Of a stretch of 5,886 nt of DNA, positions 1 through 4,138 are shown piece by piece (position 1 is the first letter of the stretch; every line of letters begins with the position of its first letter). Where the stretch lies: contig DFEO01000056.1 of assembly GCA_002368715.1 (NCBI GenBank), positions 1 to 5,886 of the forward strand, read 5' to 3'. The notes under the pieces were generated by a model, which was not told the origin of the DNA, did no database searches, and was given only the letters and a program-made list of their open reading frames with translations. Both the position numbers and the translations under genes were made by a program. The stretch is from Ruminococcus sp. UBA3800 (lineage in GTDB: Bacteria; Bacillota; Clostridia; Oscillospirales; Ruminococcaceae).

Positions 1-334
1 GCACAGACACGACCGTCAGCAGTGCCGCAAACACATAAGCGCTTATGGGCTTTCTTATCCTGCCTGTCAGGCGTGAGCCGTTCTCGGTCTTTTCAATGGT
101 CCCGAAAAAGCCGCTGGTCCCGCCGTCACGCTTTTTAGCCTGGTGGTGGAAGATCATGACCCTTTTGTCATCCCTGCGGCAGCCGTAAAAGAAAGTCTCA
201 TAGCGGTGCTTTCTCATAAAGCGCCCCAGTGACAGGATATTAAGGGTGGGACGGTATTCCGTCAGCTCCTTGTCGAGCCTTTTGCAGAGCTTTTTGGGCG
301 TCAGCGCCGTTTCGACGGTTATAAGCCTGCTCAT
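1..334 (-). CDS. Hypothetical membrane protein, 5' part only (runs off left edge)
   Basis: I translated this frame by hand; it is open from the ATG at 334-332 to the window edge, giving about 111 residues. The N-terminal 95 residues are basic and soluble-looking (RKHRYETFFYGCRRDDKR near residues 41-58), followed by a short repeat-like stretch FFGTIEKTENGSRLTGRIRKP (residues 76-96 region) and then the start of a hydrophobic segment (AYVFAALLTVVSV, from about residue 99) that looks like a first transmembrane helix. The layout resembles small Clostridial proteins with a 'G-x-I...G-x-x-L-x-G-x-I' strand pair before membrane helices, but I cannot name a family. The start codon overlaps the TGA of the preceding gene (ATGA), so translational coupling is likely; the only SD-like match, GAGGG at 347-351, is 12 bases away. 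It appears to be the last visible gene of the hisS unit. Confidence 0.72.
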   Translation of the reverse strand, partial: MSRLITVETALTPKKLCKRLDKELTEYRPTLNILSLGRFMRKHRYETFFYGCRRDDKRVMIFHHQAKKRDGGTSGFFGTIEKTENGSRLTGRIRKPISAYVFAALLTVVSV

Positions 335-663
335 TTATTGGGTGTGCCCTCGTCAGGCTTGTCGGGATAATCGGCAGGGTCAAAGACCTTGTCGTTTATC
401 TTTATCTGGCCGCCGATCCTGGTGTTCAGAAGCATCCCGTATATAGTTCCGCACTTTGTGCATCTGAACTGGTGGAATATCTTCGGCGCATACCAGCGGT
501 TCTCCTTGTCCATTATCTTATCGAGAGGACAGGTCTGGTAAACTATCTCGGCCTCTCCCGCAAGACACATCCTTGCAAGCGAGCCTACACAGAGCTGATA
601 CTCGGTCGGCGTGTGTATCTCCACAAGAGGAACATTCTTGCACTGGTCACATCTTTCGCTCAT
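331..663 (-). CDS. Small Cys-rich, probably metal-binding protein of unknown function
   Basis: A 110-residue protein that I do not recognise as a named family. It has seven cysteines: a CxxC at residues 5-8 (CDQC), C25, C33, C45, and a second CxxC at 68-71 (CTKC) in the context FRCTKCGTIYGM, which reads like a zinc-ribbon knuckle. The acidic, proline-rich tail (DPADYPDKPDEGTP) suggests a flexible C-terminus. No signal peptide or membrane segment is visible. The start is well supported: GGAGG at 672-676 lies 8 bases from the ATG, inside the last codons of hisS, and only one base separates the hisS stop from this start, so it is co-transcribed with hisS. Its own stop overlaps the next start (ATGA). 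Zinc binding is inference from the cysteine pairs; a redox role is an alternative. Confidence 0.8.
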   Translation of the reverse strand: MSERCDQCKNVPLVEIHTPTEYQLCVGSLARMCLAGEAEIVYQTCPLDKIMDKENRWYAPKIFHQFRCTKCGTIYGMLLNTRIGGQIKINDKVFDPADYPDKPDEGTPNK

Positions 664-664
664 A

Positions 665-1996
665 TCATTTGCCTCCGTTCTCCAAAAGCTTGGCTATATC
701 GTCGTCCATACCGCTGAACATCTCGCTCACTGCGGCATTCGAGAAGGCGCTCACAAGCCCTTCGCCAAGGTCGATATCGGTCTGCTCGCCGCTTCTCATA
801 TTTTTAAGTTTTGCCCTGCCGCTGTCAAGCTCGTCGCTGCCGAGCACGATAACGAATTTTGCGCCTATCTTGTCGGCATACTTCATCTGAGCCTTCAGGC
901 CTCTTCCTATAAGGTCATACTCTACAAAGAAGCCCTCGCTTCTCAGAGAGGACGCTATCGCCATAGCCTTTGAAGCCGCATCCTCGCTCATCGGAGCGAC
1001 ATAGAGGTCGCACTTTTTGGCTTCCATAAAGTCGCAGCCCTGCTTTTCCATCGTGAGTATGAGCCTTTCAAGTCCCATTCCGAAGCCCAGCGCAGGTGTG
1101 GGCTTGCCGCCCAGCTGCTCGATGAGCCCGTCATAGCGTCCGCCGCCGCAGACAGTTGCCTGTGCGCCGAGGTCGGAGCAGATGAACTCGAACACTGTTC
1201 TTGTGTAGTAATCAAGGCCTCTTACTATCCTTGGGTTCAGCTTATATTCTATCCCCATAACTCCGAGATAATGCTTCAGCTTTTCAAAGTGGTCGCTGCA
1301 TTGCTCGCAGAGAAAATCCGTGACAACGGGAGCGTCCTTTCCTATCTCCTGACAGATAGGGGACTTGCAGTCAAGTATCCTCATCGGGTTCTTTTCAAGT
1401 CTTTCCTGACAGGTCGGACACAGCTCGTCCTTTCTTGCCGTAAAGAAGTCTTTCAAAGCCTTGTGATATTTCGGTCTGCACTCGGAGCAGCCTATGGAAT
1501 TGAGGTTCAGGCTGATATTGTCAAGTCCGCAGTTATCGAGGACGTCCTTTGCCAGCGAGATCATCTCGGCATCGGCTCTGGGGCTCTCGCTTCCCACCAT
1601 TTCACAGCCGAACTGGTGGAACTCTCTGAGCCTGCCTGCCTGGGGCTTGTCATGACGAAAGCACGAAAGCCTGTAAAAGATCTTCTGGGGCAGGCCTTCG
1701 TTTAAGATGCCGTTTTCGAGTATCGCTCTCATAGCGCCTGCCGTGCCCTCGGGGCGCAGCGTGAACTGTGTGTTGCCGGCAGCGGTAACGGTGTACATCT
1801 CCTTGGAGACCACATCGGTAGCCTCGCCCACCGAGCGCACAAAAAGCCCTGTTTCCTCGAAGGTGGGTATCCTTATCTCCTTAAAGCCGTACTGCAAAGC
1901 GACCTCATCGGTTATTTTTTCTACTGTGTACCATTTATTCACCTGAGAGGGTACGGTGTCAACGGTTCCCTTAGGTCTTTGAATAAGAAGTGCCAA
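665..1996 (-). CDS. hisS: Histidine--tRNA ligase (HisRS)
   Basis: Class II aminoacyl-tRNA synthetase that charges tRNA-His with histidine using ATP in the cytoplasm. The 443-residue length is normal for bacterial HisRS. Visible motifs in order: N-terminal RPKGTVDTVP (7-16), motif 2 with FRHDKPQAGRLREFHQ (113-128), the HisRS signature RGLDYYTRTVFEF (259-271), the second histidine motif GGGRYDGL (284-291), motif 3 LGFGMGLERL (303-312), and a C-terminal anticodon-binding domain (about 328-415). The insertion between motif 2 and the signature carries paired cysteines (C170/C173, C193/C196, C210/C215, C230/C233), as in many Firmicute enzymes. The start is TTG: AAAGGA at 2006-2011 is 9 bases upstream, whereas the nearby ATG (2004-2002) is out of frame and too close to that site. 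It has its own promoter and may also receive T-box-controlled readthrough from upstream. Confidence 0.97.
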   Translation of the reverse strand: MALLIQRPKGTVDTVPSQVNKWYTVEKITDEVALQYGFKEIRIPTFEETGLFVRSVGEATDVVSKEMYTVTAAGNTQFTLRPEGTAGAMRAILENGILNEGLPQKIFYRLSCFRHDKPQAGRLREFHQFGCEMVGSESPRADAEMISLAKDVLDNCGLDNISLNLNSIGCSECRPKYHKALKDFFTARKDELCPTCQERLEKNPMRILDCKSPICQEIGKDAPVVTDFLCEQCSDHFEKLKHYLGVMGIEYKLNPRIVRGLDYYTRTVFEFICSDLGAQATVCGGGRYDGLIEQLGGKPTPALGFGMGLERLILTMEKQGCDFMEAKKCDLYVAPMSEDAASKAMAIASSLRSEGFFVEYDLIGRGLKAQMKYADKIGAKFVIVLGSDELDSGRAKLKNMRSGEQTDIDLGEGLVSAFSNAAVSEMFSGMDDDIAKLLENGGK

Positions 1997-2036: not shown

Positions 2037-2065
2037 ATTTTAACTCATTGTGCCCGAATAGTCAA
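2037..2065 (-). promoter_or_regulatory. Sigma-A type promoter of hisS
   Basis: On the minus strand, -35 TTGACT (2065-2060), a 17-base spacer, and -10 TAAAAT (2042-2037): one mismatch from consensus in each box at the ideal spacing. Transcription would begin near 2030, leaving a leader of about 34 bases with no room for a T-box. A short palindrome TGTTTGTAAACA (2071-2082) sits just upstream of the -35 box and could be an activator or repressor site, though this is only a pattern. The promoter lies in the 91-base gap between the SdpI-like gene and hisS; no terminator was seen in that gap. Confidence 0.75.
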
Positions 2066-2087: not shown

Positions 2088-2480
2088 TTAAACCAGGTCT
2101 TTAAACATTTTTTCTTTCTTTGCCTCGGCGCTGTTTTCACGGTCTTTGAGCATCTTTTCAGTCTTTATTATCGAGAACACCGCACCTGCTGTCATAAGCG
2201 CAAGCATCAGTATCTGGAGCACCAGGGAAGCGGTGTCGGGAAGGCTGAACATGAGCATATAGCTGACAGCTGTCAGCAAAAACCCTGCGCCCCCGTCTGC
2301 CAGCCAGAAAATGCCGCATTTTTTGTTTGCCAGCATCCATGCTTCGTTGCTTGACATCGAGCGCTTTGTGCGGTAGCCCACAACGGGGTTTATCTGCTTT
2401 TTTCCCTGCGCCGTCATCAATGCGCCGCCCAGCAAAAGGGTCAGCGAGATAACGATGTTTACGATCATCATAGTTTCCAT
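2088..2480 (-). CDS. SdpI-family small membrane protein
   Basis: A 130-residue integral membrane protein. Hydrophobic segments fall at about residues 5-24, 57-79 and 84-104, with a charged cytoplasmic-looking tail (106-130, rich in Lys and Glu). Between the first two lies INPVVGYRTKRSMSSNEAWMLAN (30-52 region), the hallmark of the SdpI/YfhL family: a GYRT motif followed by SM-S-x-x-x-W. In Bacillus subtilis SdpI gives immunity to the SdpC killing peptide, but most family members are uncharacterised and this short form has only the family core. No toxin gene is visible nearby, so an immunity role is not supported here. The start is ATG with GGGAG at 2491-2495, ten bases away. It is the first gene downstream of the T-box terminator, so its expression should respond to uncharged tRNA. 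The next gene is hisS. Confidence 0.87.
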   Translation of the reverse strand: METMMIVNIVISLTLLLGGALMTAQGKKQINPVVGYRTKRSMSSNEAWMLANKKCGIFWLADGGAGFLLTAVSYMLMFSLPDTASLVLQILMLALMTAGAVFSIIKTEKMLKDRENSAEAKKEKMFKDLV

Positions 2481-2501: not shown

Positions 2502-2532
2502 AAAAAAGCCGTCCCCCGAACAAGGGACGACT
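2502..2532 (-). terminator. Intrinsic terminator of the T-box leader
   Basis: Minus-strand hairpin GTCGTCCC (2531-2524) with GGGACGGC (2515-2508; one G-T pair), an 8-base loop and a run of six T. It shares the CGTCCC segment with the antiterminator, so charged tRNA should favour termination before the SdpI-like gene and uncharged tRNA readthrough. Confidence 0.9.
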
Positions 2533-2721
2533 TTACCGTGATACCACCCTAATTACCCCCGGAACGAGCCGGGAGTCACTCTGTACCCTTAACGCAGGCA
2601 GCACGCCTGTCCTTTATCAGACAGGGGCTCAGGGGTGTCCTTCAGACAGCCGCCGTGCAGACCCTTTCACCATACGGTCCTCGCTTGGCACACAGACAGT
2701 CCTACTCTCCCCGTCAAAGCC
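2502..2721 (-). promoter_or_regulatory. T-box riboswitch leader, overlapping Asp/His specifier (GACAC)
   Basis: A tRNA-sensing leader RNA. The T-box itself reads AATTAGGGTGGTATCACGG (about 2554-2536). The antiterminator (2523-2550) folds as AGGG/CCCT, the 7-base bulge TGGTATC, then ACG/CGT, and its 3' half is shared with the terminator, as expected for a switch. Stem I opens with GGCT (2721-2718) pairing AGCC (2629-2626), then a GA-type internal loop, GGGG/CCCC (2712-2709 with 2635-2632), and a specifier loop with AGAGTA on the 5' side and GAAGGACA on the 3' side. By analogy with the GAAG-codon-A layout of glycine T-boxes the specifier is GAC (Asp, 2639-2637); a two-base shift gives CAC (His, 2637-2635). 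Other hairpins include a 6-bp stem CCTGTC/GACAGG and CCCGG/CCGGG just before the T-box. The leader begins about 38 bases after the mgsA stop, and I see no convincing promoter for it. Confidence 0.93.
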
Positions 2722-2758
2722 TATCGGATATTTCTTATCTTGCCGCTCTTGACGCCTC

Positions 2759-3175
2759 TTACCTTGCCGCCGAAGCCGAAGGATTGACGATGTCTCTCCA
2801 GTCAAGGTCTCCACGCTCGAGCGCATGGATAAGAGCCTCGGCAGTAGCGATATTTGTCGCTACCGGTATATTGTGTACATCACAAAGTCTCATAAGGTTT
2901 GCCTCGTTCGGCTCGTGAGGCTTTGCAGAGATCGGATCTCTGAAGAACAAAAGAAGGTCGATCTCGTTGCAGGAGATCCTCGCAGAGATCTGCTGATCTC
3001 CGCCCTGAGAGCCGCTGAGATAACGAACAACTCCCAACCCTGTTGCTTCAGCGACCATTTTTCCGGTCGTTCCCGTAGCACAGAGATTATGTTTGCTCAG
3101 AACACCACAGTATGCGATGCAAAACTGCACCATAAGCTCCTTCTTTGAGTCGTGAGCTATAAGCGCTATATTCAA
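2759..3175 (-). CDS. mgsA: Methylglyoxal synthase
   Basis: Converts dihydroxyacetone phosphate to methylglyoxal and phosphate, a cytoplasmic bypass of lower glycolysis that relieves sugar-phosphate build-up when phosphate is limiting. The 138-residue length fits compact Firmicute forms. Motifs: N-terminal [10 protein letters not shown] (3-12), phosphate-binding ATGTTG (33-38), [10 protein letters not shown] (54-63) containing the presumed catalytic Asp60, LLLFFRDP (75-81), PHEPN (86-90), and [12 protein letters not shown] (102-113). The start is TTG, preceded by a G-rich SD (GGGGGGA at 3181-3187) five bases away; no in-frame ATG is near, and the family normally begins right at this point. It lies 35 bases after the MinD-like gene with no terminator between, so the two are probably one operon. 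mgsA near min/rod genes is a recurrent Clostridial arrangement (recalled, not checked). Confidence 0.96.
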
Positions 3176-3210: not shown

Positions 3211-3948
3211 TCAGACCTTGATGGAAAGAGGAATATGCTCGCCCTTGATGCGTCTCGATATAGCCGAGAATGCCAAGAATCCCATAGAGCTCGAAGAAAG
3301 CGGAGCGCCCTTGCCCGTTGCAAGAGGTATTGCACTGTCCTCGGGGATAACACCCAGCAGCTGAACGCCTATCGTGTCGATGATAGCATCCAGATCGTCC
3401 ATATCGTCATATTCAAATATCCTCTTATTGGCTTTGTTTATAACGAGCCTCTGCTTCTGGTTGCCTCTCTTATAGAATTCGTCAGACATCATCCTTCCGT
3501 CTCTTACACACACAGGATCCGGCGTGGTGACGATAAGGATAAGGTCGGAGTTTGTAACTATATCGAATACCGAACCGTTGATACCCGCAGAGGTGTCGAT
3601 GATGATATATTCAAAATACTTTCTCATTTCGTGGGTTATCTTCTCGATATCCTCAGCCTTCAGCTGAACGAACGGGTCGCTCGGCGCACAAAGAACGCTC
3701 AGGTTCGACGCAAGCTTTACCGTTGTGGTCGCCTTGTAAACATCGCAGGTGCCCTCAAGCACATCACCGAGATCATAAGGGATGTTTCCCTGCATACCCA
3801 GCATGATATCCATACATCTCAGACCGAAGTCGAGCTCGATTATCAGGGTCCTGTTACCCTGTTTTGCAAGAGCATATCCCAGGCAGGCGCTGATAGATGA
3901 TTTTCCTGTTCCGCCTTTACCCGAAGTTACTGCAATAATTTTTGACAT
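3211..3948 (-). CDS. minD: MinD-like ParA/MinD-superfamily ATPase lacking the usual C-terminal membrane tail
   Basis: A 245-residue deviant Walker-type ATPase, most like MinD, which with MinC places the division septum. Motifs: signature P-loop GKGGTGKSS (10-18; signature Lys11, P-loop Lys16), ELDFGLRCMDIMLG (38-51; MinD-like 'D-x-GLR-x-x-D-x-x-LG'), Walker B region YIIIDTSAGI (114-123; Asp118), TTPDP and RDGR (141-152), NKANK (171-175) and GVIPEDSAI (199-207). The end, RRIKGEHIPLSIKV, matches where MinD proteins read 'R-x-x-GE-x-x-P', but the amphipathic membrane-targeting helix that normally follows is absent. The usual D-x-PAG is DTSAG. The start is ATG at 3948 with AAAGGAG at 3959-3965; an upstream in-frame start near 4032 is rejected because it lies in the structured leader. 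No minC or minE is in the window. A non-Min cargo-positioning or FlhG-like role is possible. Confidence 0.88.
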   Translation of the reverse strand: MSKIIAVTSGKGGTGKSSISACLGYALAKQGNRTLIIELDFGLRCMDIMLGMQGNIPYDLGDVLEGTCDVYKATTTVKLASNLSVLCAPSDPFVQLKAEDIEKITHEMRKYFEYIIIDTSAGINGSVFDIVTNSDLILIVTTPDPVCVRDGRMMSDEFYKRGNQKQRLVINKANKRIFEYDDMDDLDAIIDTIGVQLLGVIPEDSAIPLATGKGAPLSSSSMGFLAFSAISRRIKGEHIPLSIKV

Positions 3949-3978
3949 AAGCTCATTGCTCCTTTCACAAACATAAAG

Positions 3979-3996
3979 CCGCAGAAAGCTCTGCGG
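3979..3996 (-). promoter_or_regulatory. Perfect hairpin just upstream of the minD-like ribosome binding site
   Basis: Minus strand CCGCAGA-GCTT-TCTGCGG: seven base pairs with a four-base loop, ending about 13 bases before the SD at 3965. There is no T-run strong enough for a terminator (CTTTATG follows). It could affect ribosome loading, mRNA stability or be the 3' module of the leader structure upstream. Confidence 0.6.
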
Positions 3997-4020
3997 AATT
4001 ATTATCCCGCACCTTAGGCC

Positions 4021-4103
4021 GGTAATGCACACAAAACAAAGCCACCCGACCCGAAGGCGGCGGTCTAACGCTGCCGAAACACAAAACAGCGACAGACGTT
4101 ACC
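4021..4103 (-). promoter_or_regulatory. Structured 5' leader RNA of the minD-like/mgsA unit, possible three-way junction
   Basis: Hand folding of the minus-strand transcript gives three helices. P1 pairs GGTAA (4103-4099) with TTACC (4025-4021). P2 pairs 4097-4087 with 4073-4063 (GTCT/AGAC, a 2x2 internal loop, CGCTG/CAGCG) around a 13-base loop. P3 pairs GCCGCC (4061-4056) with GGTGGC (4046-4041, one G-T). P1 starts at about the predicted transcription start, so the element would be the first thing transcribed. After P3 comes TTTGTTTTGTG, so P3 could alternatively act as a weak terminator. I could not match it to a known riboswitch class. It may be a novel regulatory RNA or simply a stable leader. 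Confidence 0.45.
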
Positions 4104-4110
4104 TACATTT

Positions 4111-4138
4111 ATTTTACCACATATTTTCGATTTGTCAA
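4111..4138 (-). promoter_or_regulatory. Strong promoter of the minD-like/mgsA unit
   Basis: Minus strand: consensus -35 TTGACA (4138-4133), 16-base spacer, -10 TAAAAT (4116-4111) preceded by TGG, an extended -10 element. Start of transcription would be near 4104, giving a leader of about 155 bases before the ATG. Confidence 0.8.

Follow-up and report, generated by a model that had tools for sequence, protein, structure and literature searches.

The stretch of DNA analysed here (the window) is the whole of contig DFEO01000056.1 (C147 in our numbering; 5,886 nt) of assembly GCA_002368715.1, from Ruminococcus sp. UBA3800, a draft genome of 175 contigs that is 80% complete. Its minus strand carries a T-box leader at 2726-2520, the sole Rfam match above the gathering score in the window, with mgsA and a minD-like gene upstream and hisS, the gene for histidine--tRNA ligase, downstream (Table 1). 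A sequence-only reading of this DNA had pointed to overlapping Asp (GAC) and His (CAC) codons in the specifier loop and had stated that aspS is not adjacent to hisS, so that a leader reading Asp would control a His enzyme alone unless both tRNAs were sensed. It suggested looking for aspS left of the window, and there we found it. The end of the window and the end of contig C98 share an identical 25 nt (an exact overlap), and C98 carries aspS (TIGR00459, 739.7 bits), whose start lies 831 nt after the hisS stop across the join. The open reading frame (ORF) at 334-2 stays open over the same join and reaches a total length of 159 amino acids (aa). In the close relative G022, which is 92.6% identical to our genome in hisS and 97.0% in aspS, the leader, hisS, both ORFs and aspS lie on a single contig in the order of the window. 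By gene order, hisS and aspS form one cluster behind the leader, and we infer that they are transcribed together. Because aspS belongs to this cluster, there is no Asp leader controlling a lone His enzyme, and the paradox was an artefact of the contig end.

Searched with cmscan, the leader matched the T-box model RF00230 over its full length (model positions 1-219 of 219), scoring 106.1 bits (gathering score 93; E 1.8e-23). This covariance-model alignment, which the sequence-only reading had proposed as a check, aligned GAC as the specifier. On the minus strand the specifier region reads GAAGGACACCCC, with GAC in its canonical place in the Rfam alignment (GAA-G-GAC-A-CC) and CAC overlapping it at 2637-2635. 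The first base after GAC (+1) is A2636 and the second (+2) is C2635, with which the helix below the loop (GGGG/CCCC) begins. As predicted earlier, this last C of CAC is paired, with G2709 in the Rfam structure, and opening the pair would cost ~3.4 kcal/mol in a nearest-neighbour model (from -16.2 to -12.8). The leader combines the parts of a T-box (the covariance match, a specifier preceded by GAA with its helix, a UGGN bulge and a terminator) with those of the hisS-aspS GACAC T-boxes, namely GACAC in the specifier loop and, in gene order, hisS and aspS behind it. Passages in PMC5313534 describe T-box-controlled hisS-aspS operons in bacilli and lactobacilli, with GACAC in the specifier loop as a characteristic, and the earlier statement that GACAC had been reported for such operons is also borne out by passages in PMC4342826. 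Judged by its sequence, the leader is a member of this known class.

To read further leaders we made a Stem I covariance model from 46 leaders and used it to score the codon together with +1 and +2. A T-box was present at hisS in 16/17 genus genomes with hisS and a linked bacterial aspS (our own included) and in 0/11 of those with hisS and no bacterial aspS above cut-off, a link that is confounded by shared ancestry and to that extent tells against our interpretation. Two of the 11 loci have less than 1 kb before hisS, and G011, with no hisS above cut-off, was left out of the count. The region of a putative AspRS-like gene (~450 aa), taken from 10 of the 11 genomes, gave no T-box with the Stem I model. 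The same model found no T-box in G001 (L102), which has linked hisS and aspS; there mgsA ends 168 nt ahead of hisS, and a promoter-like site before hisS is retained. A genome-wide DNA pattern for Asp T-boxes gave at least 116 loci, of which 4 passed a motif or gene check; none of these 4 was a hisS leader, and the pattern set was not used. A similar pattern over 391 genomes gave 10 matches. Those in G199 and G412 are T-boxes; the remaining 8 were judged by eye to be something else, and 5 of these are a single recurring sequence.

A feature that had gone unnoticed in the sequence-only reading is a promoter-like site between the T-box and hisS. We scored such sites as consensus matches only, with at least 10/12 bases, and took 160 nt ahead of Stem I as the upstream range. 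In the window, Stem I starts ~33 nt after the end of mgsA, and across the genus the distance is ~9-78 nt in 16/16 leaders. All 16 have a site between T-box and hisS, where local shuffles gave an expectation of 0.18 of 16, and its form is TTGAC[TG]-17-TA[TA][TA]AT in every case. Upstream of Stem I, a site fell within range in 1/16, and in 14/16 the consensus scans found none within 900 nt; at 15/16 genus loci the minD-like/mgsA unit carries a separate site. Among Bacilli and others, a site lies upstream in 48/59 and between T-box and hisS in 0/59. The figures for other Clostridia are 11/21 upstream and 3/21 between, each of these 3 also having an upstream site, and other T-boxes have an upstream site in 32/35. 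Six of the 16 genus members carry inserted genes of differing kinds between terminator and hisS, and the other 10 have short spacers. The insertions are an SdpI-like gene in our genome (2088-2480), DUF5104 plus an SdpI-like gene in G022, DUF218 in G003 and G016, a GNAT gene in G009 and an S66 peptidase gene in G014 (loci other than our own: L122, L104, L116, L110 and L114). As far as our literature search shows, this genus-wide placement of a switch behind mgsA and before a putative hisS promoter is new; no title on T-boxes with internal promoters and read-through was among the matches listed in one literature search.

The wiring could also be ordinary, with a promoter of the T-box itself overlooked by the scan and the site before hisS inactive or a remnant of coding sequence. 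Several observations lean this way. A scan for consensus matches could have overlooked a weak promoter ahead of the T-box, and 10/21 other clostridial leaders also lack an upstream site at the same threshold. In G003 and G016 the DUF218 ORF contains the promoter-like site within its 3' end, and a like site stands before hisS in 6/11 genus genomes without a T-box; part of the site's conservation may therefore be of coding origin. However, the 16/16 form is kept even at loci without a DUF218 ORF and in the T-box-less G001, Stem I follows so closely on mgsA, and the 900-nt upstream scans came back empty in 14 genomes. We consider ordinary wiring unlikely, and read the site ahead of hisS as a putative promoter behind the switch.

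Next, we assessed which of the two codons is conserved. From Bacilli and others, 83 loci yielded 67 leaders (59 by model match and 8 read by eye), with none read at 16. Codon states were placed on a tree of 104 hisS proteins, built by a quick method and with some long branches, in which L404/L405 were replaced by the duplicates L514/L498 and the truncated L515 was left out. This tree shows 6 changes of GAC and 17 of the CAC overlap, and GAC is present in 36/37 clostridial hisS leaders. Within these 37 rows the number of changes is 1 for the codon, 2 at +1, 3 at +2, 4 at +3, and 12 at each of +4 and +5. The final C of CAC is thus conserved to about the same degree as +3, the adjoining helix base, which lies outside any CAC. 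The sequence-only reading had named relatives with GAC not followed by AC as a case that would refute it. Such relatives exist, in 5/37 clostridial rows and in 34/47 GAC leaders of Bacilli and others; GACAC is found in 14/18 clostridial genera with a GAC leader. The five clostridial cases, which make up 4/18 GAC-bearing genera, are G047 (GAC-GG, one helix pair being swapped), G059 and G338 (GAC-AU, with the T-box ~1.1 kb ahead of hisS), G063 (GAC-GC) and G284 (GAC-AG).

The overlap was then compared with T-boxes of other specificities, assigned by codon alone. The control set consisted of best-scoring Rfam matches; 95 loci were searched and 94 matched (L007 was missed by the model), and after exclusion of 4 unreadable codons and 17 codons not ending in C, 73 were counted. 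In 17/73 the C-ending codon is followed by A-C and hence overlaps a CAC, the codons concerned being Leu, Phe, Asn, Ile or Tyr; the Phe-codon leader L006 of our own genome is one with such an overlap. Among GAC hisS leaders of Bacilli and a few other Firmicutes, A-C follows in 13/47 (Fisher p 0.67 against 17/73). In Clostridia, GACAC is over-represented, in 14/18 GAC-leader genera (p 3e-5), or 15/19 when L515 is included; these p values are rough, as rows are related on both sides of the comparison. Most likely, the CAC overlap is a by-product: an A follows the Asp codon, and next comes the C-G pair that closes the helix. The codon overlap is already known and mostly ordinary. Our draft genome holds 7 T-boxes (L001-L007), 3 of them above the Rfam gathering score.

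The tRNA match points the same way. The discriminator is G73 in tRNA-Asp (read in G022; none of the 17 tRNA matches of our own genome is a tRNA-Asp gene) and C73 in tRNA-His (read in our own genome). The base N of UGGN is U or C in 37/37 clostridial leaders, which fits G73 and not C73; the UGGU of our leader could form a U-G wobble with G73. Together with the codon changes on the tree, this supports the earlier view of Asp as the principal reading, and we infer that the leader mainly senses tRNA-Asp. Other findings weigh against this reading, in addition to the clostridial excess of GACAC. Three Bacilli hisS-aspS leaders (L469, L475, L481) have CAC-A in the canonical place and UGGC in the bulge, and passages in PMC7778990 indicate that the discriminator base of tRNA-His can be paired; for these two reasons the discriminator argument is weak where His is concerned. 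AACAC occurs in 12 Bacilli leaders and in the clostridial L497. An AsnRS above cut-off is present in 11/12 genomes with the Bacilli AACAC leaders. In these genomes tRNA-Asn would thus make a poor signal, and the plausible codon is the downstream CAC; like the CAC-A leaders, the AACAC leaders seem to read His. We also tried AAC as a tRNA-Asn codon, with AspRS charging tRNA-Asn as well, by way of asnS. This fits G512 and G504 (AAC, no CAC, no AsnRS above cut-off) but misfits G484 and G503 (AAC, no CAC, AsnRS present) and 11/12 AACAC genomes, and was rejected.

Further observations concern Asn. The bulge of the AACAC hisS-aspS leaders L437, L441, L446 and L451 reads UGGA, which fits neither G73 nor C73. 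In G050, a T-box reading AAC (L160; G050:C76, 3974-4084, minus strand) lies ahead of one of two aspS copies, as would be fitting for an AspRS with tRNA-Asn as a second substrate. A frame of 962-1001 aa at G000:C108:35542-36810, with kin in G003, G016 and G022, matches AsnRS below cut-off (~240 bits) and AspRS in pieces; none of these four genomes has an AsnRS above cut-off.

GACAC might instead work as a two-codon specifier, in which GAC binds tRNA-Asp and, with the closing C-G pair opened, CAC binds tRNA-His. Passages in PMC4342826 cite Gutierrez-Preciado et al. 2009 for a hisS-aspS leader with two alternative structures sensing both tRNAs, and a passage in PMC4052509, on Saad et al. 2013, reports overlapping codons and two bound tRNAs for another T-box, in Clostridium acetobutylicum. 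Both enzymes are encoded in the cluster, GACAC prevails in the 14/18 clostridial genera, and both one-codon outcomes occur among the 104 rows (GAC without CAC in 39, AACAC or CAC-A without GAC in 16). Against this stand the 17 changes of CAC to 6 of GAC, a +2 C that changes nearly as often as a +3 base in no CAC, and the modelled cost of opening Stem I; an independent-pairs test of GAC against CAC had 5 pairs and no power, with L487 uncounted. Gutierrez-Preciado et al. 2009, as cited in a passage of PMC5313534, suggested that GACAC mainly meets aspartyl-tRNA. The passages retrieved from PMC7583486, PMC7778990, PMC2494555, PMC9413887, PMC4919913 and PMC3386247 hold no discussion of the hisS-aspS codon overlap. 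Taken together, dual sensing appears quite unlikely. That CAC is the functional codon and GAC incidental is highly improbable: hisS is nearer to the leader than aspS, three Bacilli leaders have a canonical CAC and a passage in PMC7927825 calls the hisS-aspS T-box of methicillin-resistant Staphylococcus aureus a histidine T-box, but here CAC is two bases off register with its last base paired, UGGU misfits C73, and GAC is kept where CAC is lost in 4/18 clostridial genera and 34/47 GAC leaders of Bacilli and others.

We return to an Asp-type hisS-aspS T-box whose CAC is a by-product and which would act as a read-through valve behind mgsA, an account that as a whole we regard as probable. Uncharged tRNA-Asp would bind GAC by its anticodon and so stabilise the antiterminator, and transcription would continue towards hisS and aspS. 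In the genus, the leader, with no visible promoter of its own, follows mgsA and precedes the hisS promoter-like site, from which basal hisS-aspS transcription would start. Under Asp-tRNA shortage, the T-box would let the minD-like/mgsA transcript extend into hisS-aspS, including any gene that lies between the switch and hisS, here the SdpI-like gene. A bolder version seems doubtful to us. In it, GACAC would be a functional specifier for two tRNAs and a hub in evolution leading to Asp-only (GACNN) or His-only (AACAC, then CAC-A) leaders, and the genus switch, its own promoter lost, would have turned into a valve that starvation opens, set between the minD-like/mgsA transcript and hisS-aspS. GACAC could be an intermediate that may lose either one of its codons.

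A false puzzle is removed, as the overlap was known before and for the most part calls for no special account. The survey also sharpens the old suggestion of two tRNAs on GACAC, as natural leaders with GAC only, CAC only or both exist. If the proposed wiring is true, a T-box can serve as a conditional terminator behind other genes and upstream of its target's promoter, adding starvation-dependent transcription on top of a basal supply, and unrelated genes between the switch and the hisS promoter come under Asp-tRNA control.

Table 1 Features of the window, in order of transcription on the minus strand.
Feature	Position	Strand	Basis
Promoter-like site TTGACA-16-TAAAAT of the minD-like/mgsA unit	4111..4138	-	Consensus scan
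MinD/ParA-like ATPase gene, upstream of mgsA	3211..4032	-	TIGR01968, 185 bits, below cut-off 212.9; longest ORF, GTG start
mgsA, methylglyoxal synthase	2759..3175	-	TIGR00160, 163.5 bits, cut-off 146.9
Full-length T-box leader with Stem I, Stem III region and antiterminator	2520..2726	-	cmscan RF00230, model 1-219 of 219
Specifier codon GAC (Asp), canonical place	2637..2639	-	Rfam alignment GAA-G-GAC-A-CC
Overlapping CAC (His), 2 bases downstream of GAC	2635..2637	-	Sequence and model structure
T-box bulge UGGU (base N is U2543)	2543..2546	-	Sequence; predicted pairing partner of the tRNA 3' end
Predicted intrinsic terminator, 13 pairs and T run	2505..2534	-	Scan; hairpin -18.8 kcal/mol
SdpI/YfhL-family gene, between terminator and hisS promoter-like site	2088..2480	-	PF13630, E 1.2e-12
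Promoter-like site TTGACT-17-TAAAAT, ahead of hisS, behind T-box	2037..2065	-	Consensus scan
hisS, histidine--tRNA ligase	665..1996	-	TIGR00442, 495.9 bits, cut-off 286.75
110-aa protein, family unassigned, between hisS and aspS	331..663	-	ORF
Start of 159-aa ORF, continuing on C98 just ahead of aspS	2..334	-	25-nt contig-end overlap and open frame

Pfam and NCBIfam searches gave no match for the 110-aa ORF directly behind hisS. The protein is present in 26/27 other genus loci analysed, with no match in L115.

Compared with known systems, as described in passages of the papers cited, the window shares with the hisS-aspS GACAC T-boxes the gene pair, the pentamer and the suggested main partner tRNA-Asp; it differs in having sdpI before hisS, two small genes between hisS and aspS, and a promoter-like site behind the T-box. 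The two-codon T-box of Clostridium acetobutylicum likewise has a single specifier loop with two overlapping codon positions, whereas the second codon of our leader is poorly conserved. The hisS T-box of a histidine decarboxylase island (PMC5313534) also stands ahead of hisS, but its specifier is CAC, where the window has GAC in that place and aspS in the cluster. For the wiring, the nearest precedent we found is the intercistronic order gltX-(T-box)-cysE-cysS (in a table of PMC4342826), in which a T-box likewise follows one gene and precedes those that it serves. On this comparison, made by gene order only, the window differs in that its upstream genes are the MinD-like gene and mgsA and in that hisS has a promoter-like site of its own after the T-box.
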